A DNA stretch of 64,000 nucleotides from Candidatus Eiseniibacteriota bacterium. GTDB taxonomy: Bacteria; Eisenbacteria; RBG-16-71-46; CAIMUX01. How positions within the stretch are numbered: the stretch's first letter is position 1; each line of letters opens with the position of its first letter. Under the pieces are notes generated by a model, which had not been told where the DNA came from, made no database searches, and saw nothing but the letters and a program-made list of their open reading frames with translations. A program made the position numbers and the translations under genes. The stretch spans positions 1 to 64,000 of the forward strand of contig CAIMUX010000001.1 in the NCBI GenBank assembly GCA_903844735.1, in the 5' to 3' direction. Of this stretch, positions 2,427 through 17,811 are shown one piece after another.

Positions 2427-3456
2427 GCTCCGGGAAGGACTCCGAGAGCTCCAAAGCCGGCTTCCCGGAGGCTGGAGCGTAGTGCTCGACCGAAGCTCCC
2501 AGAAGGGTCCGAAGCGGAAGGACGCGATCTTTCGGGTCACGGCTCCGGACCAGCGATCGGGGGTCTTCGCCGTCGAAGTTCAAAAGCGACTGGAACCACG
2601 AGGGGTAGGGGAACTGGCGGCCCGGCCACCCGCCACGCCTGTCGATGCGGTGCGCCTGGTCCTGGCCCCGCACCTCAGTCAGTCCGTGTGCCGGCGTTTG
2701 ACTGAAGCTGGTCTCTCTTTCCTGGACCTCACCGGAAACGGTCGCCTCGAGCTCCAGGAGCCGGGACTGCTCATCCAGACGCAGGGAGCGCTCACCAACC
2801 CGGACCGGGAGGCCCGATCGTCGCAGTCCCTGCGGGGTGTCAAGGCGGGGCGGATTGTGCGCCTCCTTGTCGACTCGAAGCTGCCTCCCGGGGTGCGCGA
2901 GCTGGCCGACCGGGCGGGAGTCGATCCTGGCTATGTCTCGCGAATCCTGGGTCTGCTGGATCGACAGGCTCTCGTCGAGCGGCGGGGCTACGGACGAATC
3001 GTGAAGGTCGACTGGAGCCAACTTCTGCGCCGGTGGGCCCAGGATGCATCCCTGGAGTCCCGCGGAACGCAGATCGCCTGCCTCGATCCCCGTGGGCTAC
3101 CGGCGCTGCTCGCCCGGCTCAAAGAATTCGCGGGGCGGTACGCGCTCACGGGGACGCTGGCGGCAGAGGTGTTCGCTCCGGTCACTCCGTCCCGATTGGC
3201 GACGCTGTACCTGGATGACGTTGCCGAGTCGATGCCAAGTCTGGGACTCCGGCCGGCCGAAGCCGGCGCCAACGTCCTGGTCATCGAGCCGAAAGACGAC
3301 GGCGTGTTTATCGGCGCGGCGCCGCGTGGCGGACTGACCTACGTGGCTCCCAGTCAGGCGGCGGCGGATCTTCTCACGAGCCCCGGGCGTGGGCCGGCGG
3401 AGGCCGAGTCTCTGATCGCGTGGTTGGTCGAGAACGAGGATGCCTGGCGTGGATGA
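2404..3456 (+). CDS. Winged-helix regulator, AbiEi-like antitoxin
   Basis: The 350-residue protein has a central winged helix: GRIVRLLVDSKLPPGVRELA, then RAGVDPGYVSRILGLLDRQ and LVERRGYGRIVKVDW. A C-terminal domain follows that fits the AbiEi-like regulators of type IV toxin-antitoxin pairs. The frame is open from an ATG at 2302, but I prefer the GTG at 2404: GAGGAG lies five bases upstream, and the repeats at 2362-2426 would otherwise fall inside the coding region. Its 3' end overlaps the next gene by 17 bases, the usual two-gene arrangement. It probably represses its own promoter. The family assignment rests on architecture and context, not on a search. Confidence 0.7.
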   Translation: MAVSDNILLREGLRELQSRLPGGWSVVLDRSSQKGPKRKDAIFRVTAPDQRSGVFAVEVQKRLEPRGVGELAARPPATPVDAVRLVLAPHLSQSVCRRLTEAGLSFLDLTGNGRLELQEPGLLIQTQGALTNPDREARSSQSLRGVKAGRIVRLLVDSKLPPGVRELADRAGVDPGYVSRILGLLDRQALVERRGYGRIVKVDWSQLLRRWAQDASLESRGTQIACLDPRGLPALLARLKEFAGRYALTGTLAAEVFAPVTPSRLATLYLDDVAESMPSLGLRPAEAGANVLVIEPKDDGVFIGAAPRGGLTYVAPSQAAADLLTSPGRGPAEAESLIAWLVENEDAWRG

Positions 3457-3994
3457 GTTGTACATTCTCGCTCGCGGCGTGTTGCTTGATGCGTTGGAGG
3501 CTCTGAGCGAGCACCGAGGAGCGGCCCGTCTCGTAGGCCATGACGCCCGCTCCGTTCGCATCGTGCGAGGACTGGAGGGCGTTCTCGTCGACCGGGACCG
3601 CATGGCCATCGGATCGTTGCAGGCCGAAGACAGTCGTTCGCTGGAGATCCAGGTCGCCGGTTCCGCCGCCTTGCTGATCGCGAAGATGCACAAGATTCAG
3701 GATCGGCAGGGAACGTCGCGCCATGGCGACAAGGACGCGCTCGGCGTTCTCCGCCTTCTCCGCGGCACCAGCACCGAAGAGATGGCGGGGCGATTCCGAC
3801 GGGTGCTTCTCGACCCTGATTCCCGCGCCGCTGCCGAGACGGCCGCGAAGTGGCTCTTCCAGCAGTTCGGGAGTCCCCGAGGCGACGGGGTCGCGATGAC
3901 CCGGCAAGCAATCGGTCCCCTCGGCGATCCAGAGGAAATCTCCGCGTCCTGTGTCGCACTGGTAAGCGATCTACGGCGCGCGATCGGAGATTAG
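3440..3994 (+). pseudogene. AbiEii-like nucleotidyltransferase toxin, probable internal in-frame deletion
   Basis: This 184-residue frame begins inside the end of the antitoxin-like gene. The N-terminus (MPGVDELYILARGVLLDALE) and the C-terminal two thirds (RSVRIVRGLEGVLVDRDRMA, AGSAALLIAKMHKIQDRQGT, DKDALGVLRLLRGTSTEEMA) fit the nucleotidyltransferase-like partner of AbiEi-type regulators. The nucleotide-binding core normally found after about residue 25 is missing. The sequence jumps from ALSEHRGA to ARLVGHDAR near 3515-3535. The reading frame survives but the catalytic aspartates do not, so a loss of toxin activity is expected. A very divergent intact protein cannot be fully excluded. Confidence 0.6.
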
Positions 3995-4018
3995 GAGCAC
4001 TTGTTGCCTGCATCCCCG

Positions 4019-4070
4019 GCACTCAAAGGGGCGGTGGACGAGGCCGCGTTTGCGGGGACGGAGTTGGTGC
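4019..4070 (+). pseudogene. Short relic of a mod C-terminus
   Basis: About 50 bases resemble 2134-2195 of the mod pseudogene (ALKGAVDEAAFA followed by GTE), with a small gap. This is a third trace of a type III methyltransferase in the first 4.1 kb. It lies directly after the toxin-like relic and upstream of the DUF6088 relic. Confidence 0.6.
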
Positions 4071-4113
4071 CTGTCGCCGACCGGCGGGATCTTCACGTTC
4101 TGGCGTTTGGTTC

Positions 4114-4542
4114 TTGTCCGAAGAACATGCTATCTTCCCGGACGAAAAGCCGTGGGAAAAACACGCACAATCAATTGATAGGCAGGTCGTTAGAAGGCTG
4201 TTGGCCCGAAAGCCTGGCTGGGTCTTCACGCAGAGCCAGTTCGGCGATCTGGGGAGCCCGGAGGCCGTGCGCAAGGCCTTGGCTCGCCAGGTGGCATTCG
4301 GGAAGATCTGCCGCGCACGTGGTCTGTACGGCCTGCCGCGCCGCGATCCCCAATTAGGACCGCTTGTGCCTTCGGTCGAGGCGACCGTAGAGGCGCTGAA
4401 AGGCCGCGATGCAATCCGACTCCAGCCCCAGGGTGCCTACGCCGCGCAACATGGCCACCCAGGGGTCGCTCCAGCGCCGCTGCCGGGGGGGCGCACGACG
4501 CCCCAACGGACATATACCGACCGGGATACAGAAGCGACGTAA
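4114..4542 (+). pseudogene. DUF6088 / AbiEi-type antitoxin relic, internally deleted
   Basis: The frame contains the typical DUF6088 N-terminus: SIDRQVVRRLLARKPGWVFT, then LGSPEAVRKALARQVAFGKI, LYGLPRRDPQLGPL and EALKGRDAIRLQPQGAYAA. Directly after GAYAA (about 4440) the family sequence stops. A different frame of the next bases reads TPRNMAT, a motif expected roughly 50 residues further on in this family, so the middle is probably lost. The junction bases (acgccgcgcaac) could encode both sides. The start is uncertain: a TTG at 4114 is in frame, and no good SD is visible. Confidence 0.65.
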
Positions 4543-4547
4543 CGTGC

Positions 4548-4603
4548 TTGACAATAATGAATTGACAGGCCCGTCGTCCTAAGGTAAGAACTTTTACCTT
4601 AGG
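4548..4603 (+). promoter_or_regulatory. Promoter with perfect palindrome before the truncated ATPase gene
   Basis: Two TTGACA hexamers occur at 4548-4553 and 4562-4567. The second is 17 bases from TAAGAA (4585-4590), an acceptable -10. The palindrome CCTAAGGTAA (4578-4587) / TTACCTTAGG (4594-4603) covers this -10, and its right arm runs into the SD-like AGGGGG before the ATG at 4612. It could be a repressor operator, or an mRNA hairpin hiding the SD. Confidence 0.5.
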
Positions 4604-4611
4604 GGGTAGCG

Positions 4612-4745
4612 ATGTCGGATGAGGATTGGGGCTTGTACGGTAGGCGCGACGAGCTGGACCAGCTTTCCGGTATCTTCGACCGTGGTCGCTGGTTCTTCGT
4701 GAAGATCTCCGGCCGCCGGCGGATCGGGAAGACCACCCTGTGCGA
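4612..4745 (+). pseudogene. AAA-family ATPase, N-terminal fragment only
   Basis: A good start (ATG after AGGGGGTAGCG) opens MSDEDWGLYGRRDELDQLSG, then FFVKISGRRRIGKTTL. This is the beginning of an archaeal-type/DUF234-like ATPase, broken off just after the Walker A lysine-threonine. The following bases are the leader of the res gene, so everything downstream of the P-loop has been deleted. The frame runs on as nonsense to about 4812. Confidence 0.7.
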
Positions 4746-4769
4746 TTGTCCCATGAACAGGAGTCACCG

Positions 4770-5975
4770 ATGCCCGAAAGGAAGAGCGCACCCCGGCCCG
4801 TTCAACCGGTAGAAGACCCTGTCCTCTGCAGTCCCTACGAGGAACCGAATCGTTACTGGTTGTATGACAACGAAGGTGTGCCTCGCCTGATGCCCGGCCG
4901 TCGACCGGCCGGCTACTGGTACAAGACCGTGCGAACCGGGAAGATCCAGGAGGATCTGTTCCGTGAGGAGCAACGCGACGATCTTCCCCTGGTCAACGCT
5001 CTGCGCGACGACGTGAAACGCTGGCGCGAATCCAACTATCGAGGCGCTTCCAAGGTGACGGTCAACCTGCTCCTCCACTGGCGTCGCGCCGATGCCCCGC
5101 GGCGCCTGTTCTTCTGCCAGGCCGAGGCAGTGGAAACCCTGATCTACCTGATGGAGATCCGTATCCCCGGGAGATCGGCGCGGTCCGGCTTCCAGAAGTT
5201 CGCCCTCTCGGATTCCGACCTGAAAGCCCTGCTGGAGGGAGAGGAGACTCGGGAGCTTCCACCCACGAGTATCTCTCCCTGCCTGGTCGACAGGTCCGAC
5301 GACGGCGACCTTCTTCCCCTGCTTCGCCTCGGCTGCAAGATGGCCACCGGCAGCGGCAAGACGCTCGTCATGGCCATGCTCATCTGCTGGGCGTTCTGCA
5401 ACCGGCGCTTCAACCCAGAGACCCGGGACTACCCGAGTGCCGTTTTGATCTGCTGCCCGTCCTGAATCCGTACCGGCCACATCTCAGCACCAAGGATGTC
5501 GAGTACCTGACCATGAGGCCGGTGGTGCCGGTCGAACGTAGCCACCTGAACGCGGTCGACTTCCAGGGGGAGTGGGAGAAGGAGTCGGCCCGAACCCTGG
5601 ATACCAGCGATCTGGTGGAGAGCTTCGTCCGCAACAATCGTTTCGTCGGTCTCTCCATTCCCTATGTGTACCTCGACGAATCCCACCGTTATGAGCCCGA
5701 CTTCATCGTGCCCTTGCACGGAGGGCTTCAGGTCATCCTGGAGATCAAGGGGTACGAGTTCCGCGAACCCCGACCGCGTCCACGCCAAGAACACCGCAGC
5801 GCGGAAATGGGTGAGCGCGGTCAACAATCTCGGCGACTACGGACGGTGGGGGTTTGTGATCTGCCGGGAGGTGGGAAACCTGGAAGGAATGCTGGCCAGG
5901 ATCGCCGAGTCCGTGCCGCCGGGGTCACCCGGGGGCGACGTACCGATGATCGAGGATGCGGGCGTCGATACCTAA
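4770..5975 (+). pseudogene. Type III restriction enzyme (res), middle deleted and frameshifted
   Basis: From an ATG with AGGAG upstream the sequence matches the N-terminus of type III restriction subunits (CSPYEEPNRYWLYDNEG) and reaches the helicase Walker A motif CKMATGSGKTLVMAMLICWA. It stops after AVLICCPS near 5464. The C-terminal end of the same family follows in another frame (LLPVLNPYRP, VERSHLNAVDF, YEPDFIVPL, VILEIKGYEF), with one more frameshift near 5770 before HAKNTAARKWVSAVNNLGDY. The helicase motor between them is lost. The bases atctgctgcccg at the junction can encode ICCP of the first part and LLP of the second. With mod also broken, the type III system is dead. Confidence 0.85.
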
Positions 5976-6238
5976 CCATCCCCGAACCGAGAAGCCGGAG
6001 CAGATCCCACAGATCACGCGGGTGGTCCTGGGCAAGCTCGCCGAGGAAACGGCGCCGGCCACGGCGCCAAGTGTTCCCTCGGAGGAAAAGCACCTTGTGT
6101 TCGCCCCGGGACAGTGCGGATAGTCACGCTCTGACGGCACTCCACTTTGTTGGGGGCAGGCGACTCCTGTTGACCACAGGGCAGAAGGGGTGAACACAGC
6201 CTGCCTGCGCAGGAACAAGGTTCGAGAGAAGGTGCAAC

Positions 6239-7048: not shown

Positions 7049-9487
7049 GTGGTTCGATCTATCATCTCCACGCACCTGCTGTTGGGCGTTTTCGCCCTCG
7101 GGATGATTTGCGCCACGTCTGGCGCCGCCGCCGCGGCTCCAGTGCGCTCGGATGGCCGAACCCGTCTCGATTTGCGTGCCCGGGAGCTCCTGGACCGGTT
7201 CGCCGCTGCTCGCACGGGCGCCGGCGGGGGCTACTCGGACGCTCTGGCCGATGACTTGATCGCGCTCGCGGACAGCCTCGAGCAGGCGCGGTCCGACTCC
7301 CTGGCCTGGAAATGTCACCGGGGCGCGGCGGCCCTGCTCGCCCGACGCGGGCGGGGCGAGGAGGCCGCGGCGCGCAACGAGCACGCCCTGCGCGTCGCCC
7401 TGGCAACCGGCAGCCCGGCAATGATTCTCAGATCGCGCATCGCCCTGGCCGACTCTTACCGCACTGCCGGCCGGGTGGAGGAGGCGATCGCGACCGCTCG
7501 CAGCGCCGTCTTAGACGCGGTCCGCGCCGGCGACTCCCTCAACGTCGCGGAAGCATCGAACTCCCTGGCCAGCTCCTGCCTCTCGATCGGTCGCCAGGGC
7601 GAGGCCGGCGAAGCCTACGACCGCGCCCTGGCGGCGGCGCGGGCGAACCGCGATGCGCCCAATACGATCGAAGCGCTGGGCGGTCTGGCCCAGTACCTGC
7701 ACTTCTGCGAACGCAACGGGGAGGCGCTGGTCCACGCCGATTCCGCGGTCGCGCTGGCGCAGCGGGCCGGCAATCCCCACAACCGGGCGGTGTGTTACAA
7801 CGTCCGTTCGATCATCCTGTCGGCGCTGGCCAACCAGCCGGCGGCGCTCGCCGACATCGACAGCGCCTGCGCGATCGACCGGCGATCCGGCAATCTCCGC
7901 CACCTGGTCCAGTCGCGGACGAGCCGGGCGCGGGTCTACCAGCGCATGGGACTGACCGACGCGTGCCTGGCCGAGACCGACAGCTTGTTGGCGATGGCGT
8001 CGGTTCGCGAGGAGGACTTTCGCACCCGCTTGCTCTCCCTGCGAGGCATCGCCCTCATCGAGGCTCGGCGCTTTGCGGAGGCCGAGTCGTTGCTGCTCTC
8101 GACGGTGGGACTTGCGGAACACCGGCGCCGGGAGCTGGCGGAAGAGAGCAGCCGGGCCGCGGCGTTCTATTACGGCGGCCAGGCCCACACGACCCTGGCG
8201 CGCTGCTATCTCGAGCAGGGGCGCATCGAGCCGGCCTGGCACGCATTGCAACGCGGGCGCGCCGCGGTGTTGCGCGAGCATATGGAGCCCTCCCCGGCCT
8301 GCGACCCCACGCTCGAGCTCACGCGCTTGCAGCGGGAACTCCTCCGGGCGAACGCGGCCATCGTGCAGTACAACGACGCATCCAGGAACCCCATGGTGGC
8401 CTTCGTCCTTACGGGGGATTCCCTGGAGGTCGTGTCCCTCGGCATCGCCCGTCACGGGGCGGACGCGGAGACGGCGATCCAGCTCTTGTCGAGCGGCGCG
8501 CCGGACAGCCTGTGCCGCGCCGTGCTGGGGCGCGTGGCGCGTGACATCGTGTCCGAGGTCGTCGCGCGGATCCCCGAGAACGTGACCCGCCTCTACATCG
8601 CCCCTCCGAGCGATCTGACGGGTTTCCCGTTCGAGGAGTTGCCTATCCGCCCTGGTCCGGATCCGGCCCGCCCGCCGGAGGGGGACGCTACCCCCACCAC
8701 GCTGGGCGACCGTTACGCGGTGACCTATCTGCCCAACGCGGATCTCCTGCTCGTGCTGCTCGATCGCGCCTGCGCTGCCGGGGGCATGATGCTGGTAGCG
8801 GACGCGACGCTTCCGGCGACGAAGCAGGAGGTCCGCCGACTGGCTGTCTCCGGCGCGCGCCGGTTTCAGGGTCAGGAAGCCTCGAAAGCCAGACTGATCG
8901 AGACCCTGTCGGCAGACCCGTGCGCTGTGCTCCATTTCGCAACCCACGCCACGATCGATGCCGTGCACCCGGAGCGATCGGCCCTGCGGCTGGGCACGAA
9001 AGACTTCGACCTGACGACGGCGCAGATCGAGAGTCTGGCGCTGGCCGCGGACCTCGTGACGCTGAGCGGCTGCCGTACCAGCGGCGGACACACCTACATC
9101 AGCGAAGGAACGCTCGGCCTTCCGCGCGCCTTCCTCATCGCCGGGGCCCGGAGTGTCGTCAGCAGCTTGTGGGATGTCGAGGACCGCGCCGCCATGCAGT
9201 TCATGACCTTCTTCTACGCCAAGCTGCGCGATGGCCTCCCGCGTGACGAATGCCTGCAGGCCGCCAGGGCCGACATGCGCCGGGCGGGCTATTCGACCCG
9301 GGACCGCGCAGCATTTGTCCTCACCGGCGTCGGACACCTTCCGGTGACGAGCCTCGCGGGCGCAACGGTCCCTCCGCGCCCGGGCCCCTATGCTTGGGGC
9401 ACGGGGGCAGTTATGCTCCTCGCGCTGATCGGGTGGCTCACTCGTCACTTCACCGCCGGATCCGGCCGCGGGAGATCGCGCGGCTGA
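7049..9487 (+). CDS. Exported TPR-CHAT protease-like protein
   Basis: The 812-residue protein begins with a signal-like segment (HLLLGVFALGMICATSGAAA), continues with several TPR-type helical repeats to about residue 420, and then has a CHAT domain (caspase-like clan CD). The catalytic pair is visible: His633 in HFATHA and Cys675 in LSGCRT, followed by the typical GLPRAFLIAGARSVVSSLWD. A hydrophobic segment near the C-terminus (TGAVMLLALIGWL) could anchor it in the membrane. I chose the GTG at 7049 because TCGGAG precedes it and it starts the signal peptide; the open frame reaches 6881. An ECF sigma factor and an anti-sigma-like protein follow within 13 and 22 bases, so they are probably one operon. 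CHAT proteases cleave specific partner proteins; the neighbouring anti-sigma is an attractive candidate substrate, which is inference. Confidence 0.85.
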   Translation: MVRSIISTHLLLGVFALGMICATSGAAAAAPVRSDGRTRLDLRARELLDRFAAARTGAGGGYSDALADDLIALADSLEQARSDSLAWKCHRGAAALLARRGRGEEAAARNEHALRVALATGSPAMILRSRIALADSYRTAGRVEEAIATARSAVLDAVRAGDSLNVAEASNSLASSCLSIGRQGEAGEAYDRALAAARANRDAPNTIEALGGLAQYLHFCERNGEALVHADSAVALAQRAGNPHNRAVCYNVRSIILSALANQPAALADIDSACAIDRRSGNLRHLVQSRTSRARVYQRMGLTDACLAETDSLLAMASVREEDFRTRLLSLRGIALIEARRFAEAESLLLSTVGLAEHRRRELAEESSRAAAFYYGGQAHTTLARCYLEQGRIEPAWHALQRGRAAVLREHMEPSPACDPTLELTRLQRELLRANAAIVQYNDASRNPMVAFVLTGDSLEVVSLGIARHGADAETAIQLLSSGAPDSLCRAVLGRVARDIVSEVVARIPENVTRLYIAPPSDLTGFPFEELPIRPGPDPARPPEGDATPTTLGDRYAVTYLPNADLLLVLLDRACAAGGMMLVADATLPATKQEVRRLAVSGARRFQGQEASKARLIETLSADPCAVLHFATHATIDAVHPERSALRLGTKDFDLTTAQIESLALAADLVTLSGCRTSGGHTYISEGTLGLPRAFLIAGARSVVSSLWDVEDRAAMQFMTFFYAKLRDGLPRDECLQAARADMRRAGYSTRDRAAFVLTGVGHLPVTSLAGATVPPRPGPYAWGTGAVMLLALIGWLTRHFTAGSGRGRSRG

Positions 9488-9500
9488 GGAAATTACCTTC

Positions 9501-10043
9501 GTGGGAATCGAGACCAGCGACACGATCCTGAAGACGGGCCTGGAATTGCTGCGCCGGCGATTCCTCGCGATTGCGGGCGGCCGCGTTCCCGCCGACGTCG
9601 TCGAGGACGTGGTGCAGGATGCGATGCTGGTCGTCGTTCGGAAGATCGACGGTGCACAGGTCGAGGAATTGACCGACGGGCTGCCCCGCCTGACCTGGTG
9701 CTTCCAGGTGCTGCGCAACACGATCGGCAACTACTACCTGCGCAGCGCCCGGCACGCGGGAGACCAATTGCTGGAGTGCCCGGATCGCCTCCCGGGACCC
9801 GGTCTGACGCCCGTCGAGGCACTGGAGGCGAAGGAACTACGCCAGGCCCTGACCGCGGCGCTGGCCGAGATGCGCGCCTCCGACCCGCAGTGCGGGCGGT
9901 ACATCGGGCGACTCCTCGACGGGCTGCCGCCGGCAGCGCTGGCCGCGGAGGAAGGCGTGGAACACGGCGCGCTCTACCGGAGGATGTATCGGTGCCGGAT
10001 GAAGCTGCGCGGCCTTTTGGCCGAGCGGGGGATTCGGGTCTGA
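9501..10043 (+). CDS. ECF-type RNA polymerase sigma factor
   Basis: The 180-residue protein has the two-part layout of sigma-70 family ECF factors. Region 2 includes VVEDVVQDAMLVVVRKIDG and PRLTWCFQVLRNTIGNYYLR. A linker follows, then region 4-like helices (GRYIGRLLDGLPPAALAAEE, HGALYRRMYRCRMKLRGLL). It starts at GTG with GAGGAAA upstream. It lies 13 bases after the TPR-CHAT gene and just before a membrane protein of anti-sigma type, so all three are likely co-transcribed. It may control its own operon and the secreted-protein genes downstream; no -35/-10 pair specific to it could be read. Confidence 0.85.
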   Translation: MGIETSDTILKTGLELLRRRFLAIAGGRVPADVVEDVVQDAMLVVVRKIDGAQVEELTDGLPRLTWCFQVLRNTIGNYYLRSARHAGDQLLECPDRLPGPGLTPVEALEAKELRQALTAALAEMRASDPQCGRYIGRLLDGLPPAALAAEEGVEHGALYRRMYRCRMKLRGLLAERGIRV

Positions 10044-10065
10044 CCGGGCGGAAAGGAGCATGCGC

Positions 10066-10716
10066 ATGACGGAGTCGAGGCCACCGGTGCCTCCGGAGAG
10101 GGTCCGGCCTCTTCTGGCGTACCTCGCGGGCGATCTGAGACCCGAGGAATCGCGCGAAATCGAGAAGGAAACCCTCGCCGACGACGCCCTCGCGGAACTC
10201 TGCTACAGCCTGCAGGGGATGGACGCGATACTCACCGCGAACGCCCCCAGCGAGACCCCGCAGCCGGCCTCCCGCCCGCCGGAGAGGGTTCCCTTATCCC
10301 AGCGCGTGCTGATGTGGCTCCGTCCCTCGCGGGTCTGGGCGCCCGCCGCGGCGGGCGTTCTGATCGCCCTGCTGCTGGTTCGATCACTCGGTTTCCTCGG
10401 AGATGATGACCGGAGCTTGCGGATGCGAGGGCCCGATACCGCGCCGGTAACCCTCGCCCCCGTGGGCGACGTGAAGGGGGCGCCCGATCGCTTCGTTTGG
10501 CGCAGCTCGCCGAACGCCGCCCACTACCGGTTTCGCCTCCTCGACGCCTCGGCCCGCCTGGTTTACGAAAGCGTCACGGACGACACCACGCTCGTGCTGC
10601 CCGCTGCGCTTCTGCGAGATCTGACCGCCGGCACCTGGATGGTCGTGACCCAGGATCGCAAGGGCGCTGAGACCCGGGTTTCGCCTCCCGCCGCCTTCCG
10701 CGTGATCCAGCCCTGA
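10066..10716 (+). CDS. Single-pass membrane anti-sigma-like protein
   Basis: The 216-residue protein has a short acidic N-terminal cytoplasmic domain (VRPLLAYLAGDLRPEESREI, as in anti-sigma N-termini, but without the HxxxCxxC zinc motif), one membrane helix (AAAGVLIALLLVRSLGFL) and a C-terminal beta-rich extracytoplasmic domain (FVWRSSPNAAHYRFRLLDA) resembling a fibronectin-like fold. The ATG at 10066 is preferred over the one at 10060 because AGGAG sits seven bases before it. Its position after the sigma gene suggests it holds that factor at the membrane. The outer domain could sense a signal or be cut by the exported CHAT protein; both are inference. Confidence 0.7.
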   Translation: MTESRPPVPPERVRPLLAYLAGDLRPEESREIEKETLADDALAELCYSLQGMDAILTANAPSETPQPASRPPERVPLSQRVLMWLRPSRVWAPAAAGVLIALLLVRSLGFLGDDDRSLRMRGPDTAPVTLAPVGDVKGAPDRFVWRSSPNAAHYRFRLLDASARLVYESVTDDTTLVLPAALLRDLTAGTWMVVTQDRKGAETRVSPPAAFRVIQP

Positions 10717-10962
10717 TCCCCCCTCTCCCCTGAGTGCCCGCGCGTGCGACGAGCGGGAGATTCTTCGGGTCGTGAAATGATCCAAGCGTCGACGCCCCGA
10801 CGCCCTGGGTGCTGAATCCCGCGCCGCGGCGGTCGGATATCGAATCCGCTGCCCCACCGGGTGGGGATCAACCATCGCCGGAGTTCGGCGGACGGAGGCG
10901 TTCGGTTCCAGACCCTCCAGACTGCGTTGCCGCCAGAAGGATCTCTTGAGAGGAGTATCCGT

Positions 10963-12660
10963 ATGAAGTCGTGCATCGGTTCGAAATCGAACGGCACCGG
11001 GCGCAGAAGCCGGTACTCGCTGCCAGAGGGCAAACGGGGGCAGGTCATGCGTCGGGGCTGCAGGGCGTTTCTCATCCGGTTGTCCTCCGTCCCTTTCCTG
11101 GTCGCGGTCACGGCGCTGGGCGCCACCCACGCCGACGCGGTACCGAAAGCAATCCGCCTGACGAACACCGACGCGCAACACACGGCTTGGCTGCGGGTCC
11201 CGGATTCCAGCACGCTCGAACCCCAGCAGTTCACGCTCGAAGGGTGGATTACGCCCATCGGGCCGGGGTATGGCAGCACCAACGATGCCTACGGTGCGGT
11301 ACTTCTGGCCAAACCTCGGGAAGGGGCGAGTGGATATTGGCTGGGAAGCTATTTCCTCGACTGGAGCCCAGTAACGAACAAGGTGAGTTTCAGCCTGACG
11401 CATACCTACCCCAGCCAGGGGGTTAACCTATTTTCGATCGCCGTTGTGTTGGTCGGTCAGACAGCCCACGTTGCCGTCGTGTTTGACGGGCAGGAAGTAC
11501 GTCTCTACATGGACGGCCAGTTGGACAACTCCTGCGCTTTCCCGTACCAGGGTGTCTACTACGGCGCTGAGGACATCCTCATGGGCGCGGGCAACTTCCT
11601 CTATCCGTGGCTTCGCCGCTTTGATGGTGTCCTCGATGATGTGCGACTGTGGAACTACCCGAGGACGGGGGAGGAGATAGGGCGGGACATGAACTGCTGC
11701 CTGTTGGGAAACGAAGCGGGGCTTCTGGCCTGGTGGTCGTTTGACCACGACCTCCTGATCGACAACAGCGGACATGGCCACGACGCCCAGATGAATGGCG
11801 TGGCGGGAATGGCAGGCTTCGTGCCCCCGAACGTGAACACTCCCTGCATCGCTCCCTACACCGTGTCCCTTGACCCCACGGGAACCTATCTGCGGACCAA
11901 CGAGGACCCATCTGCCGCCGGTTGCCGCATTGTTGACCTGTTGGGCTGCGGCATTGAGCCTGGCGACACTCTGCGGATAGATCGCGGGGGCGCGTTCGAA
12001 TACCACTGCACTCCCGAATATCCGGAGGGACACCCGGATGACCCGGATGGACTGGGGACACTCTGCGTCTTCTCCAGTTCGAACATCTTGTTGCCATCTG
12101 ACAACGCCGCCAGAGTTCCCGGAGCCCTTGATGCCGGCGACGACTGCGTGACGCCACCCACACTTTATGGAAGTATTCCGACGGATATCCCCGAGGACTT
12201 CGCGGTGATCGACAGCGTCTTCGTCGTGGTGCCGCTAGGGGCGCAGTATCTCTTCGTCGGCGCCAACGATGAGTTCTATGGTGACAACTGCGACCCAAAC
12301 GGAGACTACGCGGCGACCGTGAACCGGAAGTGGGAATGCCCAGACGTGACTTCCTCGGCGCCGGAGAGTGCCCAAGGAACGGATAGGACTGTCGGCTCCG
12401 TCCGGCCGAATCCATCATCGAGCGGCGTGACGGTGGAGCTTCTCGGCTCTGGGGCGCTGCGCGACGTGAAGGTATCAGTTCACGACGCCGCCGGTCGCGA
12501 GGTGCGAGCGTTCGCGGTTCGCGACGTCTCTTCCGGAGTGCACCAGGTCTTCTGGGACGGTGCGGATGCCGGAGGGGCGCGGGTGCCTGCCGGTGTCTAC
12601 TTCGTCCGGGTGGCGAACGAGCACGGAACGAACACCCGGAGACTGGTCATCGTCCGGTGA
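10963..12660 (+). CDS. Secreted LamG-type protein with FlgD-like C-terminal tail
   Basis: This 565-residue exported protein has a hydrophobic leader (SSVPFLVAVTALGATHADA). A concanavalin/LamG-like domain follows (QQFTLEGWITP, HVAVVFDGQEVRLYMDGQLD, FDGVLDDVRLWNYPRTGEEI), then a Cys-containing middle. It ends in a FlgD-Ig-like domain (PNPSSSGVTVELLG, VFWDGADAGGARVPAGVYFV) closing with RRLVIVR. LamG domains usually bind glycans; the tail is the sorting-type domain common in FCB bacteria. The ATG at 10963 has a strong GAGAGGAG upstream. A second ATG at 11047 gives a more ordinary signal peptide, so the start is open between the two. Confidence 0.75.
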   Translation: MKSCIGSKSNGTGRRSRYSLPEGKRGQVMRRGCRAFLIRLSSVPFLVAVTALGATHADAVPKAIRLTNTDAQHTAWLRVPDSSTLEPQQFTLEGWITPIGPGYGSTNDAYGAVLLAKPREGASGYWLGSYFLDWSPVTNKVSFSLTHTYPSQGVNLFSIAVVLVGQTAHVAVVFDGQEVRLYMDGQLDNSCAFPYQGVYYGAEDILMGAGNFLYPWLRRFDGVLDDVRLWNYPRTGEEIGRDMNCCLLGNEAGLLAWWSFDHDLLIDNSGHGHDAQMNGVAGMAGFVPPNVNTPCIAPYTVSLDPTGTYLRTNEDPSAAGCRIVDLLGCGIEPGDTLRIDRGGAFEYHCTPEYPEGHPDDPDGLGTLCVFSSSNILLPSDNAARVPGALDAGDDCVTPPTLYGSIPTDIPEDFAVIDSVFVVVPLGAQYLFVGANDEFYGDNCDPNGDYAATVNRKWECPDVTSSAPESAQGTDRTVGSVRPNPSSSGVTVELLGSGALRDVKVSVHDAAGREVRAFAVRDVSSGVHQVFWDGADAGGARVPAGVYFVRVANEHGTNTRRLVIVR

Positions 12661-12788
12661 GGTTGGCAGGATGATGCGCCGCGATCAGGCCACGTGCCCG
12701 TTCGTCCGTCCGTGTCGCGGCTGGCCCAGTGGTGAGCACCAGAGTTAACAGGCAAACGCCGTTGTCCGAGATGAAGGAGGTTCGAGCC

Positions 12789-14771
12789 ATGAAACGCATC
12801 GTCGCGCTCTGCGTTGTGATGATCTGGGCGTCCACCGGCCTCGCCACGGCCACCGTGCCGGCGTCCATGAGCTACCAGGGTCTGCTCAAGGACCCGAGCG
12901 GCACCAACATCCCCGACGGCACCTACGGCCTGACCTTCCGGCTCTACAGCCAGTCTTCCGGCGGCGCTCCGCTTTGGAGCGAGGCCCAGTCGCTGCCGGT
13001 GCAGGACGGCGTGTTCAGCGCCGTGCTCGGCTCGGTGACCCCGCTCACCCTGCCATTCGACGCCCAGTACTGGATCTCGCTGCAGGTGGCGGGTGATCCC
13101 GAGCTGCCACGGGTCGTGCTCACGTCGACCCCCTACGCCCTACGGGCGGCCGTCGCCGAGACCCTCGTGGGCGGCGGCGGTTCGGGCGACATCACGGCGG
13201 TCTACGCGGACAACGGCCTCACCGGCGGCGCCATGAGCGGCGATGCGCACGTGGGCATCGGCGCGGGCGCCGGCATCAGCGTCACGGCCGACGCGGTGGC
13301 GGTGGACGGGGCCGCCGTGGCCGGTGCGGGACTGGTGTCCGAGGGAGCCAGCGCGGTGGCGGTGAGCGCCGGCACCGGGCTCACGGTTGCCGGTGATCAA
13401 GTGCGCCTGACGGATCCTTACGCCGCGGGCACAGCCTACGACGCGCGGTTCGTGAACGAGAGCCAGGCGGGATCGGTGACGGCGGATATGGTCGTGCCGA
13501 ACGTGGTGTCGAGCGTTGACGGGGTGGTGAACGACGGCGGCAACATCGACCTGGTCGCGGGGGAGAACGTGATCATCACCCCGGACGACGCGAACAACCG
13601 GATCACGATCGCGGCGGCCGGGGGGGGCGGCGGGATCGGGGGGAGCGGGACGGCCGGGTATGTACCCAAGTTCACCGCCGGCACGACCGTCGGCAATTCC
13701 CTGGTCTACCAGGATGTGTTCGACAGAGTCGGGATCGGCACCACCACTCCCACGTCACAGCTCACCGTCGCCAGCGGGCCCGGTGACGGTATAGAGGTCG
13801 TCGCCTTTGGGAACCCCGAAATCAAATTGACGTCAGAGGATGCCGGCGGGTCGTCGTGGCTCACGTTCCGGCGTGGTGGTCTCACCAGGACGCACATCAG
13901 CGAGTCGAGCGGCGGCTTTCACATGATACGCAACGCGGAGTCCGGAGGGATCGCCCTGGTATCCGACGCGACCGACGCGATCCGGAGTTGCGCGGTCCTC
14001 GGCATGTACAACGGCAGCGCCGTGTCCGACTACGTGGGGATGCACGGCGAGAGCTGGCCGGCGGACTACTACGGGATCGGCGGGGTATTCATGGGCGGGT
14101 ACATCGGAGCGAGGGGCATGGTCTTGGCCTCGGGAGGGATGGGCTACTTCGGACTGGTCGGCGAGGCAACAGGAGGCACCGGGACGAACTGCGGGGTCTT
14201 CGGCGCGGCCTCTGGCGCGGGCCAGAACATTGCTGTGCACGGTGAGGCCACCTCCGGAACGGTCAGCTATGCCGGGTACTTCGAGGGCAACGTTCACGTC
14301 ACGGGCAACTTCAGCGTCAGTGGCACGAAAGCCTTTCGCATCGATCATCCCACGGATCCCTCGAACAAGTATCTGAACCACTTCTGCGTGGAGTCCGACG
14401 AAGTCCTGAACACCTACAGCGGCAACGCGGTGCTCGATGCGACGGGCGAGGCCTGGGTGGAGCTGGCGGACTGGTTCGATGCGATCAACCGCGATCCGCG
14501 CTACCAACTCACCTGCGTCGGCGGTCAGGCCCCGGTCTACGTGGCCGAGGAGATCTCCGGCAACCGCTTCAAGATCGCGGGTGGCAACCCGGGGCTCAAG
14601 GTCTCGTGGCAGGTGACGGCCGTACGCAGCGATCCGGCGATCGAGAAGCACCGCTTGCCCGTGGAACAGGAGAAGCCGGCTCCGGAGCGCGGCAAGTACT
14701 TTGAACCCGAGCTGTACGGTGCGCCCGACACCCGGCGTATCGGCCGGATCGAGGAGAAGGCGAAGAAATAG
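12789..14771 (+). CDS. Exported tail-fibre/adhesin-like repetitive protein
   Basis: AAGGAGG precedes this ATG. The 660-residue product has a signal peptide (KRIVALCVVMIWASTGLATA) and an N-terminal domain seen in many FCB exported proteins (MSYQGLLKDPSG, GTYGLTFRLYS). A long Gly/Ala/Val-rich stretch follows (AGTGLTVAGDQVRLTD, IDLVAGENVIITPDDANNRI) that resembles phage tail fibres and trimeric adhesins. Further parts include NRVGIG-type text (DRVGIGTTTPTSQLTV) and a late domain (GYFEGNVHVTGNFSVSGTKA). The end is charged. It is probably a surface fibre or adhesin. The following gene starts nine bases later with its own SD. Confidence 0.7.
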   Translation: MKRIVALCVVMIWASTGLATATVPASMSYQGLLKDPSGTNIPDGTYGLTFRLYSQSSGGAPLWSEAQSLPVQDGVFSAVLGSVTPLTLPFDAQYWISLQVAGDPELPRVVLTSTPYALRAAVAETLVGGGGSGDITAVYADNGLTGGAMSGDAHVGIGAGAGISVTADAVAVDGAAVAGAGLVSEGASAVAVSAGTGLTVAGDQVRLTDPYAAGTAYDARFVNESQAGSVTADMVVPNVVSSVDGVVNDGGNIDLVAGENVIITPDDANNRITIAAAGGGGGIGGSGTAGYVPKFTAGTTVGNSLVYQDVFDRVGIGTTTPTSQLTVASGPGDGIEVVAFGNPEIKLTSEDAGGSSWLTFRRGGLTRTHISESSGGFHMIRNAESGGIALVSDATDAIRSCAVLGMYNGSAVSDYVGMHGESWPADYYGIGGVFMGGYIGARGMVLASGGMGYFGLVGEATGGTGTNCGVFGAASGAGQNIAVHGEATSGTVSYAGYFEGNVHVTGNFSVSGTKAFRIDHPTDPSNKYLNHFCVESDEVLNTYSGNAVLDATGEAWVELADWFDAINRDPRYQLTCVGGQAPVYVAEEISGNRFKIAGGNPGLKVSWQVTAVRSDPAIEKHRLPVEQEKPAPERGKYFEPELYGAPDTRRIGRIEEKAKK

Positions 14772-14780
14772 GAGGTCGAG

Positions 14781-15332
14781 ATGAAAGCGTTGATCACCAT
14801 CAATCGGGCCGCCGGAATGGCCGCGGGCCTGATCGCCGGGGTCGCGCTGACCATGCCCGCACCGGCGACCGCCCAGATCGGGCTCGGCCGTAGCGTCAAC
14901 GGAGTCGCTGGGGCGACCGTCAGCAACGCCAGCTACCTCCACGGCTGTACGGTGGGCCAGGCCGTGGCGGGCAGCACGGCCAGCGTCCTCTTCACTCACG
15001 GCATCGGTTTCTGGTTCACGATGGACAGAGCTCTCTCGAGTGCGCCGGAACTGCCGCCCGCGGTCCCGATCGCGTTCGCTCTGAGTCTTGCCGGAGCGAA
15101 CCCATCCAGCTCAGGGACCAGGATTGCCTACGCTGTCCCGGTTTCCGCGCAGGTGACGATCCGGCTCTTCGACATCGCCGGCCGCGAGGTCCGCGCGCTC
15201 GTGGCCGGACGGGTGGAGCCCGGACGCCACGAGGAAGATCTGGGCGCGTCTGGCCTGGGCGGCGGCGTCTACTTCTGCCGGATGGACGCCCCGGGGTTCT
15301 CGGCGACCAGGAAGCTGGTGCTGCTTCGCTGA
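14781..15332 (+). CDS. Small secreted protein with FlgD-like C-terminal tail
   Basis: This 183-residue product starts after AGGAGGTCGAG. It has a signal peptide (GLIAGVALTMPAPATAQ), a short middle containing NGVAGATVSNASYLHGCTVG, and a FlgD-Ig-like end (VTIRLFDIAGREVRALVAGR, GGGVYFCRMDAPG) closing in RKLVLLR. The middle is too short to assign a function. It is likely co-transcribed with the adhesin-like gene just before it and could be a companion surface protein. Confidence 0.7.
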   Translation: MKALITINRAAGMAAGLIAGVALTMPAPATAQIGLGRSVNGVAGATVSNASYLHGCTVGQAVAGSTASVLFTHGIGFWFTMDRALSSAPELPPAVPIAFALSLAGANPSSSGTRIAYAVPVSAQVTIRLFDIAGREVRALVAGRVEPGRHEEDLGASGLGGGVYFCRMDAPGFSATRKLVLLR

Positions 15333-15435
15333 CCGCGACCTCTTCGGCGGGACGTGTGACGCGGACCGATGCGACATGGCGTGTGACGAAAGGAGCGTCC
15401 GGACTCACTGTCTGCTTCGCTCGGAGGGATTGACC

Positions 15436-17811
15436 ATGACGAACGTCGAGCCGGTTGCCATCTCCTGTCCTCGGAGCTTCCGCCGGGCGTGCCTCTGTGC
15501 CGGAACATGGACGGGACCCGTTCTGCTTCTGATCCTTTGCCTCATCGGCCCGGCGCGGGCAGGGGACTCGATGGTCCCTGACCCGGGGGCCGTGCGGGAT
15601 TGCGTGCCGATCCCGCTGACCGGTGGGTTCTGCGTCCCCCGGACGGGCCAGCCCACCGACTACTCGTTCAACGTCGCCATACCCTACTGGATGGTCTTCG
15701 CGGTTGCTCCCTCCGGCGCTGACGACAAGGACGCCTACGTCTACACCGGCCCCTGCGCCACCGGCACCATGCTCGGCTACTCGAACCGCTCCACCGGCAC
15801 CGATCTCGTCGTCGGGGACGGCAATCACCTCGCGGCGGGGACGTACTACGCGCAAGTCCGCTACGGCGACCAGACCTCGCCGTACGCCGTGAACTGGAAT
15901 GGCGGTGCGGACATCCTCCCTCCCGACGTGAACGTGGGCGGGGCGATGGACTGTGCGGACTACTCCCCGATCGGCCCGGCGCTTGTTTGGGATGTGCAGC
16001 TCCAGGCCGGACAGCGGTACTCCTTCGACCTCAGCCACAGCGGCGTGCCGATGGCCCTATTCCGGAGCCAAGGATCGGCCTACTGGGCCGGGCGCAATGC
16101 CGCCGAGATCGAGGTGGGGGCAGGTGACACCCAGGAGTACGTGGCCCCGGCGACCGACTGGTACGGCGCCGTGGTCTTCAACGACCTTCCGGGGTGCGAG
16201 GGGCGGATCTGGAACTTCAGCTACCAGCTCTGCGGCGAACTCCCGCTCCCCTCGGCCGGATGCACCCAAGGCATCGGCGTCCCGAAGCTCCTGAGCCTCG
16301 ATCAGACGACGCAACCCAGAACCTGGATCGGGCTGGCCGTGAACTCCATGGATCCGGGCGACTTTAAGTCGATCGCCGTTCACGAGAACGACTGCGGCAC
16401 CGGCCTTCCGGTGGAGGGGTCCGGGGCTTCCAACAACACCAACTTCGTCCTCGGCAATTTCAACGTTCTCACGCCGGAGCTTCTGCACGTGCGCGTCGGT
16501 GGGGGTTCACCGAGCATCGGCTGGGTCTTGGACTGGGAGACCCAGGATGACGACTTGGTTGTGGGGGTTCCCGTCTCCGTGACCGTGGGGGGCGGCACAG
16601 GATCGTGCAACCTGATCCGCGTGTGGGACGTGGAGCTCACCGAGGGCCAGCCCTACCAGTTCACCCTGACGAAGCAGGGGGACGACATGCGCATGGCCAT
16701 CTTCTATCCGCGCGCGAACGGCTGGTGGTATCGCGGCGGGCAGGAGGAGGAATGGCCAGGAGACGGTCTCTCCCATGTCTTCGTTCCGGTTACCAGCGGC
16801 ACCTGGGCCCTGGCCGTCTACGATGACAGCCCGGCCTTCTCCGGCGCATCCTACACGGTCGGCTTCGACCAGTGCGACGCGATCCCGCTCGGTCCGGCCT
16901 CGTGTCGGCAAGAGACGGAAGCCAATCGGCTCTACGTCACCCAGGGCGGAGGTTCCTGCTGGCGCGGGATCGCCGTCAACACGGCGGAGGACGAGGCGCG
17001 CGACCTCGGTGTCATGACCTCCTGCTGGGGCGGGCAGGTGCTGGCCGCCTGCACGGCGGTCGAAGGCACCGATTTCGTCGTCGGCGACGGTTACGGGACA
17101 TACGATCCCGTGGTTACGCTGGTCAGGGGTGCTGCCGATGTCCCCTGGACCGTCGAGTACAACGAGTGCGTTTGGCTGTGGCCGGGAACCGCGATCGTGG
17201 GGTCGGTCGGCGGCGCCTCCGGAGCCTGCGGCCTGATCAACGTCTTCGATGCTCCGCTCGACTCCGGTCTGGTCTACCAGTTCACGCTCTCCACGCAGGG
17301 TGCGGCCGACATCCGAATGGCCCTCTTCGACAGCGCCGAACAGGACCCCTATTGGGTCAGTCGGAGCCAGGCGGTTTTCGAAATGGCGGCGAACCAGACA
17401 CCCGGTTACTTCCAGGCTCCGCGGCAGGACGCTTATGGCGTCGTGCTGTTCAACGCCTCGGCCGGTTCCCCCAGCGGGTCATTCACGTTCGAACTCCGGG
17501 AGTTTTCGGCCGCATCCGCTCCGCAGGATGTTGCCACGTCGCTGTCGGATCATCCCCGGCCGAATCCGGCCCGCTCCTCGGTGGAGATCGCCTATCGGCT
17601 GGATTCTCCCCGGGAGATCATACTCGAGATCTTCGACGCGGGAGGAAGACAGGTGCGCTCCATGCGCGCAGGCCCCGGAACATCGCCCGAAGGACTCTTC
17701 ACTTGGAACACCCAGAATGATCTGGGCCGCCCGGTGTCCAGCGGCGTCTACCTCTACCGTCTGCTCGGCGGGCGATCGGTTCAGCGAGGCGTGATCACGG
17801 TGCTGCGATGA
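15436..17811 (+). CDS. Large secreted multi-repeat protein with FlgD-like C-terminal tail
   Basis: The 791-residue protein starts at an ATG preceded by GGAGGG. After a signal segment (TGPVLLLILCLIGPARAG) it contains about five beta-rich repeats of roughly 120 residues. Each carries a core such as YSFDLSHSGVPMALFRSQGS, YQFTLTKQGDDMRMAIFYPR or YQFTLSTQGAADIRMALFDS, with paired cysteines, and resembles PPC-type beta sandwiches. It ends with a FlgD-Ig-like domain (HPRPNPARSSVEIAYRL, SSGVYLYRLLGG) closing in ITVLR. No catalytic domain is visible. It is the last of four exported genes following the sigma factor operon. Confidence 0.75.
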   Translation: MTNVEPVAISCPRSFRRACLCAGTWTGPVLLLILCLIGPARAGDSMVPDPGAVRDCVPIPLTGGFCVPRTGQPTDYSFNVAIPYWMVFAVAPSGADDKDAYVYTGPCATGTMLGYSNRSTGTDLVVGDGNHLAAGTYYAQVRYGDQTSPYAVNWNGGADILPPDVNVGGAMDCADYSPIGPALVWDVQLQAGQRYSFDLSHSGVPMALFRSQGSAYWAGRNAAEIEVGAGDTQEYVAPATDWYGAVVFNDLPGCEGRIWNFSYQLCGELPLPSAGCTQGIGVPKLLSLDQTTQPRTWIGLAVNSMDPGDFKSIAVHENDCGTGLPVEGSGASNNTNFVLGNFNVLTPELLHVRVGGGSPSIGWVLDWETQDDDLVVGVPVSVTVGGGTGSCNLIRVWDVELTEGQPYQFTLTKQGDDMRMAIFYPRANGWWYRGGQEEEWPGDGLSHVFVPVTSGTWALAVYDDSPAFSGASYTVGFDQCDAIPLGPASCRQETEANRLYVTQGGGSCWRGIAVNTAEDEARDLGVMTSCWGGQVLAACTAVEGTDFVVGDGYGTYDPVVTLVRGAADVPWTVEYNECVWLWPGTAIVGSVGGASGACGLINVFDAPLDSGLVYQFTLSTQGAADIRMALFDSAEQDPYWVSRSQAVFEMAANQTPGYFQAPRQDAYGVVLFNASAGSPSGSFTFELREFSAASAPQDVATSLSDHPRPNPARSSVEIAYRLDSPREIILEIFDAGGRQVRSMRAGPGTSPEGLFTWNTQNDLGRPVSSGVYLYRLLGGRSVQRGVITVLR

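Follow-up and report, generated by a model that had tools for sequence, protein, structure and literature searches.

A sigma inhibitor is the substrate of the TPR-CHAT protease Csx29 (PMC10028731). In PMC8999054 (citing Casas-Pastor et al. 2021), genes for a carboxypeptidase, a subtilase and a CHAT protein are described around the extracytoplasmic function (ECF) sigma factor ECF54, for which control without an anti-sigma factor is proposed. In separase, the Arg at the P1 position of the substrate is held via an acidic residue, D2151 (PMC10317155), which is stated to match K670 (PMC9729208). Here we describe a gene set with likenesses to each of these systems, located at 7049-10716 of the first 64,000 nucleotides of contig CAIMUX010000001.1 from a Candidatus Eiseniibacteriota bacterium (this whole stretch is referred to below as the window). 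It comprises the genes for a TPR-CHAT protein with predicted export, an ECF sigma factor and a putative membrane anti-sigma factor. With a probability that we place at about 0.55, the trio is an envelope signalling module in which the exported CHAT protein cuts its own anti-sigma factor to free the sigma factor. This proposal draws on the gene set, its co-conservation, the intact catalytic dyad, the domain layout, the matched compartments and an invariant Arg, all as computed here.

Results

The three genes lie on the + strand in the order CHAT, sigma, anti-sigma, at the positions claimed in an earlier, sequence-only reading of this DNA, and are separated by gaps of 13 nucleotides (CHAT/ECF sigma) and 16 nucleotides (ECF sigma/anti-sigma), so that the trio is compatible with a single operon. 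The CHAT gene (7049-9487) has a GTG start, and its frame stays open upstream to 6881. The Pfam CHAT profile (PF12770) matches its product at 154.5 bits with an E-value of 5.5e-45, alongside TPR_12 repeats, and the Pfam profile for separase (C50) gives a weak match. The same reading had taken the His/Cys pair to be intact and the protein to be exported; His633 and Cys675 are indeed present and are invariant in 78/78 CHATs, and a signal peptide is predicted at the N-terminus. By its profile, its TPRs and its His/Cys pair we class the window protein as a CHAT peptidase, with proteolytic activity as a prediction. A search of the PDB with a profile of 17 CHATs gave type III-E Csx29/TPR-CHAT and separase (the latter at E 2e-5) as the nearest solved relatives. 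The window protein is not a member of the Csx29 family (NF041237), scoring 22 bits against a cut-off of 300, and the PADLOC models returned no defence-system match for it, BovA alone being hit, at 17.6 bits over the CHAT domain. We also note a C-terminal hydrophobic helix (approximately residues 782-801) that the sequence-only reading had overlooked; its Kyte-Doolittle maximum is 1.27 in the window and mostly 1.6-2.7 in relatives.

Recurrence was counted over 70 CHATs of at least 400 amino acids, in neighbourhoods from relatives that had been fetched for CHAT alone. An ECF gene lies within 1.3 kb on the same strand in 30/70 of these and on either strand in 36/70; the chance expectation, at the ECF density of the host genome, is approximately 0.015 (1.5%) per CHAT for either strand. 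The figure of 30/70 is a lower bound, as some contigs are short, and the p-value of the linkage is a guide only, the rows being related. Genes of both kinds abound in these genomes (the host genome has six CHATs and 22 ECF matches), which would favour adjacency arising at random or from a general crowding of genes in dense regions, but at the level of linkage this explanation is refuted, and retains next to no probability, by the 30/70 against approximately 1.5% expected, by the agreement of the sigma and CHAT clades and by the persistence of the linkage across two gene orders. Within the host genome itself at least 3/6 CHATs have an ECF gene nearby, and the trio is repeated at locus L009.

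The order CHAT-sigma-anti-sigma is found in the window and at L009, L041, L101, L110, L112, L135, L141, L143, L145 and L180, and the order sigma-anti-sigma-CHAT at L106, L118, L151 and L152. Both orders occur in the subfamily of the window: the first in the window and L041/L150, the second in L151 and L152, there with 4-bp overlaps. Despite their differing gene order, the window, L151 and L152 form a clade with support of 100/99 in the sigma tree and in the CHAT tree alike. A profile of the membrane anti-sigma factor matched in 25/385 genomes at E <=1e-8, of which seven, labelled "same domain" only, are outside the phylum; in 3/7 of the latter both a CHAT and a sigma gene adjoin the anti-sigma gene (CHAT-sigma-anti-sigma in L237, sigma-anti-sigma-CHAT in L243 and L248), while in L242 the calls for these parts overlap, and L246 has the anti-sigma and CHAT genes only. 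The sequence-only reading had made its proposal depend on co-conservation of the three genes, and the trio is present, in two gene orders, both outside the phylum and across several of its families. As a separate observation, L230 appears to hold a decayed CHAT remnant (3244-4929; 39.7 bits), reduced to the C-terminal part and the membrane helix, adjoining an intact sigma/anti-sigma pair.

The sigma factor (9501-10043) scores above the TIGR02937 cut-off of 42.9 bits, with a Pfam Sigma70_r2 match of 16 bits that falls below its own cut-off, and scanning with the sigma alignment gave relatives in records labelled Ca. Eisenbacteria and Krumholzibacteriota. The third protein (10060-10716) has no Pfam match and a weak NCBIfam match to "putative anti-sigmaE" (E 0.0014); zf-HC2 matches are seen in its orthologues only, below cut-off, and a search of the PDB with the anti-sigma sequence gave nothing significant. 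Its predicted structure consists of three confident helices (residues 12-61), a membrane helix (94-109), a linker (108-128) with a predicted local distance difference test score (pLDDT) below 50, and a beta-sandwich (134-218; pLDDT approximately 90) that resembles Fn3-like modules, the Foldseek match being to 3pe9 (CbhA) with a TM-score of 0.62 by target length and E 9e-4. The model thus agrees with the earlier claim of a single-pass partner, adding the three-helix and Fn3-like domains. With an N-terminal helical domain, one membrane helix and an ECF neighbour, the modelled protein has the layout of a membrane anti-sigma factor, and we predict that it binds the sigma factor. For this protein and for the CHAT, export and topology are predictions from hydrophobicity and the model.

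All three parts could be read in 31 complete sets, in which the N-termini of doubtful starts were checked. The sets fall into two compartments. In 18/31, the window included, a CHAT with predicted export accompanies an anti-sigma factor with one membrane helix, in either gene order, and in 13/31 a CHAT with neither signal nor C-terminal helix accompanies a soluble partner that has no membrane helix; many of the soluble partners have an HxxxCxxC-like (zinc-finger-like) start and a beta-rich C-terminal part. Mixed pairs number 0/31 (Fisher 4.8e-9, a value that overstates the match, as only one or two independent switches lie behind it). On the trees we count one compartment switch by sigma and two by CHAT, and both changes are concerted. 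In L090 both parts are soluble, though its CHAT groups with the exported CHATs of L103 and L109, and in L099 a sigma of one clade stands with a CHAT of another lineage that is still exported. A third kind of membrane partner, in which a TPR-like periplasmic part replaces the Fn3-like domain, was seen beside an exported CHAT at L045, L103 and L109.

Among 19 membrane anti-sigma factors belonging to two sigma subfamilies, invariance is confined to three columns, namely the linker Arg (R123 in the window) and two positions in the Fn3-like part, one Trp and one Val; the linker Arg is invariant also in alignment A3. A conserved residue within a disordered, membrane-side linker is the pattern that a cut site would show. 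Many of the soluble partners have a similar Arg-Gly between their two domains. A loose form of the Arg motif was present in 23/23, compared with approximately 3/9 control anti-sigma factors without CHAT from the host genome (Fisher 9e-5, the controls having been counted by eye). The motif was also considered as a marker of an adjacent CHAT and was rejected as a diagnostic, as pairs without CHAT retain it.

Features of the window

The coordinates of the gene set and of one downstream gene are collected in the table below.

Table 1. Features of the gene set at 7049-10716 and a downstream candidate, with the evidence for each
Feature	Position	Strand	Evidence
TPR-CHAT protein, predicted exported, 812 aa	7049..9487	+	PF12770 154.5 bits and TPR_12; about 17 TPR helices in model
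Predicted signal peptide VVRSIISTHLLLGVFALGMICATSGAAAAA	7049..7138	+	hydrophobic stretch 1.97; hydrophobic N-terminus also in L151, L152
Putative catalytic His633 codon	8945..8947	+	H in 78/78 CHATs
Putative catalytic Cys675 codon	9071..9073	+	C in 78/78 CHATs; aligns with Csx29 CHAT core
Predicted CHAT C-terminal membrane helix, residues 782-801 (borderline in the window)	9392..9451	+	helix in model; stronger in most orthologues
ECF sigma factor, 180 aa, GTG start	9501..10043	+	TIGR02937 48.9 bits; clade with L151, L152 sigmas
Putative membrane anti-sigma factor, 218 aa	10060..10716	+	modelled three-helix domain, membrane helix, linker, beta-sandwich
Anti-sigma-like N-terminal helical domain, residues 12-61	10093..10242	+	pLDDT >90 over most
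Predicted single transmembrane helix of anti-sigma, residues 94-109	10339..10386	+	model; hydrophobicity 2.06
Arg123 in predicted disordered periplasmic linker, candidate cut site LRMR/GPD (slash marks the proposed cut)	10426..10428	+	invariant column; linker pLDDT <50
Predicted periplasmic Fn3-like domain, residues 134-218	10459..10713	+	Foldseek match to CbhA Fn3 module 3pe9
Downstream secreted protein, speculative output of the switch	12729..14771	+	homologue downstream of paralogous operon L009, same genome, E 1.5e-26

Around the trio, 10861-17811 encodes four consecutive secreted-type proteins, with FlgD_ig or Por_Secre_tail matches in three of them, one below cut-off. Further downstream lies a second TPR-CHAT gene (18858-21836; 992 amino acids) with a signal-like N-terminus and five in-frame repeats of 126 nucleotides (TPRs) at 19282-19911; no ECF gene was found within 8 kb of it. 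Upstream, a DUF6088/AbiEi-like fragment at 3850-4542 (PADLOC AbiEi E 6.2e-21) and, after it, two pieces at 4740-6193 with weak ResIII and RE_endonuc matches, which resemble a disrupted type III restriction enzyme, are perhaps the remains of a decayed defence island.

Discussion

We propose that the CHAT protein would be exported and face the periplasm, with its C-terminal helix anchoring it in the inner membrane, while the N-terminal helical domain of the anti-sigma factor would keep the ECF sigma factor at the membrane, with the linker and the Fn3-like domain exposed in the periplasm. On sensing a signal, the TPR/CHAT protein might cut the anti-sigma factor in the membrane-side linker, most likely at Arg123, after which an M50 site-2 protease, two M50 proteases being present in the host genome, could cut within the membrane and release the sigma factor. 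The targets would perhaps include secreted proteins encoded downstream. The sigma binding, the cutting, the cut site, the site-2 step and the targets are steps that we infer. Shared downstream genes were considered as a regulon and rejected, as only the family of 12729-14771 recurs, and at one locus (L009).

Besides the small number of compartment switches, several results weigh against this proposal. The sigma/anti-sigma pairs of L146, L148 and L149 have no CHAT within 8 kb on either side, the in-phylum pairs of L229, L232, L233 and L234 have none nearby, and in G059, the genome of L146, window-like CHATs (L178, L179) are located elsewhere and not beside an ECF gene; given these pairs and lone CHATs, the CHAT is a frequent but not a fixed partner. 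The linker Arg is retained in L146, L148, L149, L229 and L232. The L041 CHAT is without the C-terminal helix. In the structure predicted for the window CHAT from a three-row alignment, the CHAT domain has a pLDDT below 50, so the model was left out of the fold comparison, and a motif search of the sequence preceding the operons gave no common ECF promoter above the level of shuffled sequence. Finally, PMC9729208 and the numbering of the Csb chain place the equivalent of separase D2151 at Trp+8, which is Met716 in the window and a column without an acidic residue in the other CHATs, and the enzyme side thus gives no support for Arg at P1. On the same grounds D712, a candidate for the D2151 equivalent, was dropped. 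E594 of the CHAT is fully conserved and might stand in for the separase residue.

The CHAT-less pairs of the same families (L146, L148, L149, L229, L232), the same-family CHATs that stand alone in G059 and the varying gene order would also fit the main rival, in which the CHAT is an output: a standard site-1 protease would make the cut in an ordinary envelope-stress sigma/anti-sigma pair, and the CHAT, driven by the sigma factor, would act on other proteins, either secreted or of the envelope. We consider this unlikely, though it deserves to be taken seriously; against it, the compartments of CHAT and partner agree in 31/31 sets, among which are one switch and one swapped partner, an adjacent CHAT is present beside most close pairs, and the solved relative Csx29 targets a sigma inhibitor (PMC10028731). 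Alternatively, the CHAT might be a sensor or shield that binds the Fn3-like domain, with the cut made by another protease (DegS-like, then M50) and the CHAT peptidase serving something else. The absence of the separase P1-Arg pocket residue at the matching position (PMC9729208) and the linker Arg kept where no CHAT is adjacent speak for this reading, but the invariant His and Cys (78/78 CHATs) would be unexpected in a pure scaffold, and we rate it as more improbable still.

A protease acting on its own anti-sigma factor at the envelope can be set in a wider scheme, which we offer tentatively and hold to be possible rather than probable: CHAT-controlled sigma switches would form a widespread family in two matched compartments, the envelope CHAT would be a site-1 protease at the invariant linker Arg, and the switch of type III-E CRISPR would be related to this older bacterial module as a captured form triggered by RNA. 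The scheme predicts a single membrane-side Arg, invariant across two sigma subfamilies. If it is true, caspase-like proteases control bacterial transcription well beyond CRISPR, in the envelope and in the cytosol, the range of known site-1 proteases is widened by a cysteine peptidase, and the Craspase switch gains a possible origin.

With regard to novelty, we found no account of an exported CHAT paired with a membrane anti-sigma factor in the literature searched, which took in few subscription journals, and the pairing of the exported CHAT with an ECF sigma factor and a membrane inhibitor suggests an undescribed envelope version of the sigma switch under protease control that a CRISPR system is known to have. 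The sequence-only reading had proposed a new protease-switched sigma variant; co-conservation, predicted export and the single-pass partner bear this out in part, whereas the CHAT-ECF association already noted for ECF54 (PMC8999054) means that the system is not wholly new. Common to ECF54, as portrayed there, are the ECF-CHAT linkage and the proposed proteolytic control, and by gene context alone the soluble sets described here would fit it; for instance, the own-genome paralogue L010 encodes a sigma factor, a partner, a CHAT and a subtilase (PF00082 133.7 bits), and a weak carboxypeptidase-regulatory-like match (E 4.9e-4) is given by the soluble partner of L113. Among the ECF54 context genes, the window set has CHAT only, compared with CHAT and subtilase in L010, and the window set differs from that portrayal of ECF54 in its predicted exported CHAT and in a membrane anti-sigma factor with a periplasmic Fn3-like domain.

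The likeness to type III-E Craspase (Csx29, Csx30, CASP-sigma; PMC10028731, PMC9729208) extends to the TPR-CHAT protease with its His/Cys core, the sigma inhibitor and the RpoE-like sigma factor. In contrast to the cytosolic Csx29, the window CHAT is predicted to be exported and is accompanied by a membrane protein that carries an Fn3-like domain; the substrates, too, are dissimilar. As the sequence-only reading had stated that CRISPR was absent, we note that no CRISPR-like repeat was found in window positions 1-30000, no genome-wide search for cas genes having been made. With separase (Peptidase C50) the CHAT shares the PDB profile match and the weak Pfam match, but the P1-Arg residue D2151 is not retained. 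With the RseA/DegS/RseP pathway (PMC8103513, PMC10028731) the window set shares a predicted single-pass anti-sigma factor with a cytosolic sigma-binding domain and a host genome that encodes M50 proteases; the difference is that here the site-1 role would fall to an operon-encoded, membrane-tied cysteine peptidase of clan CD.

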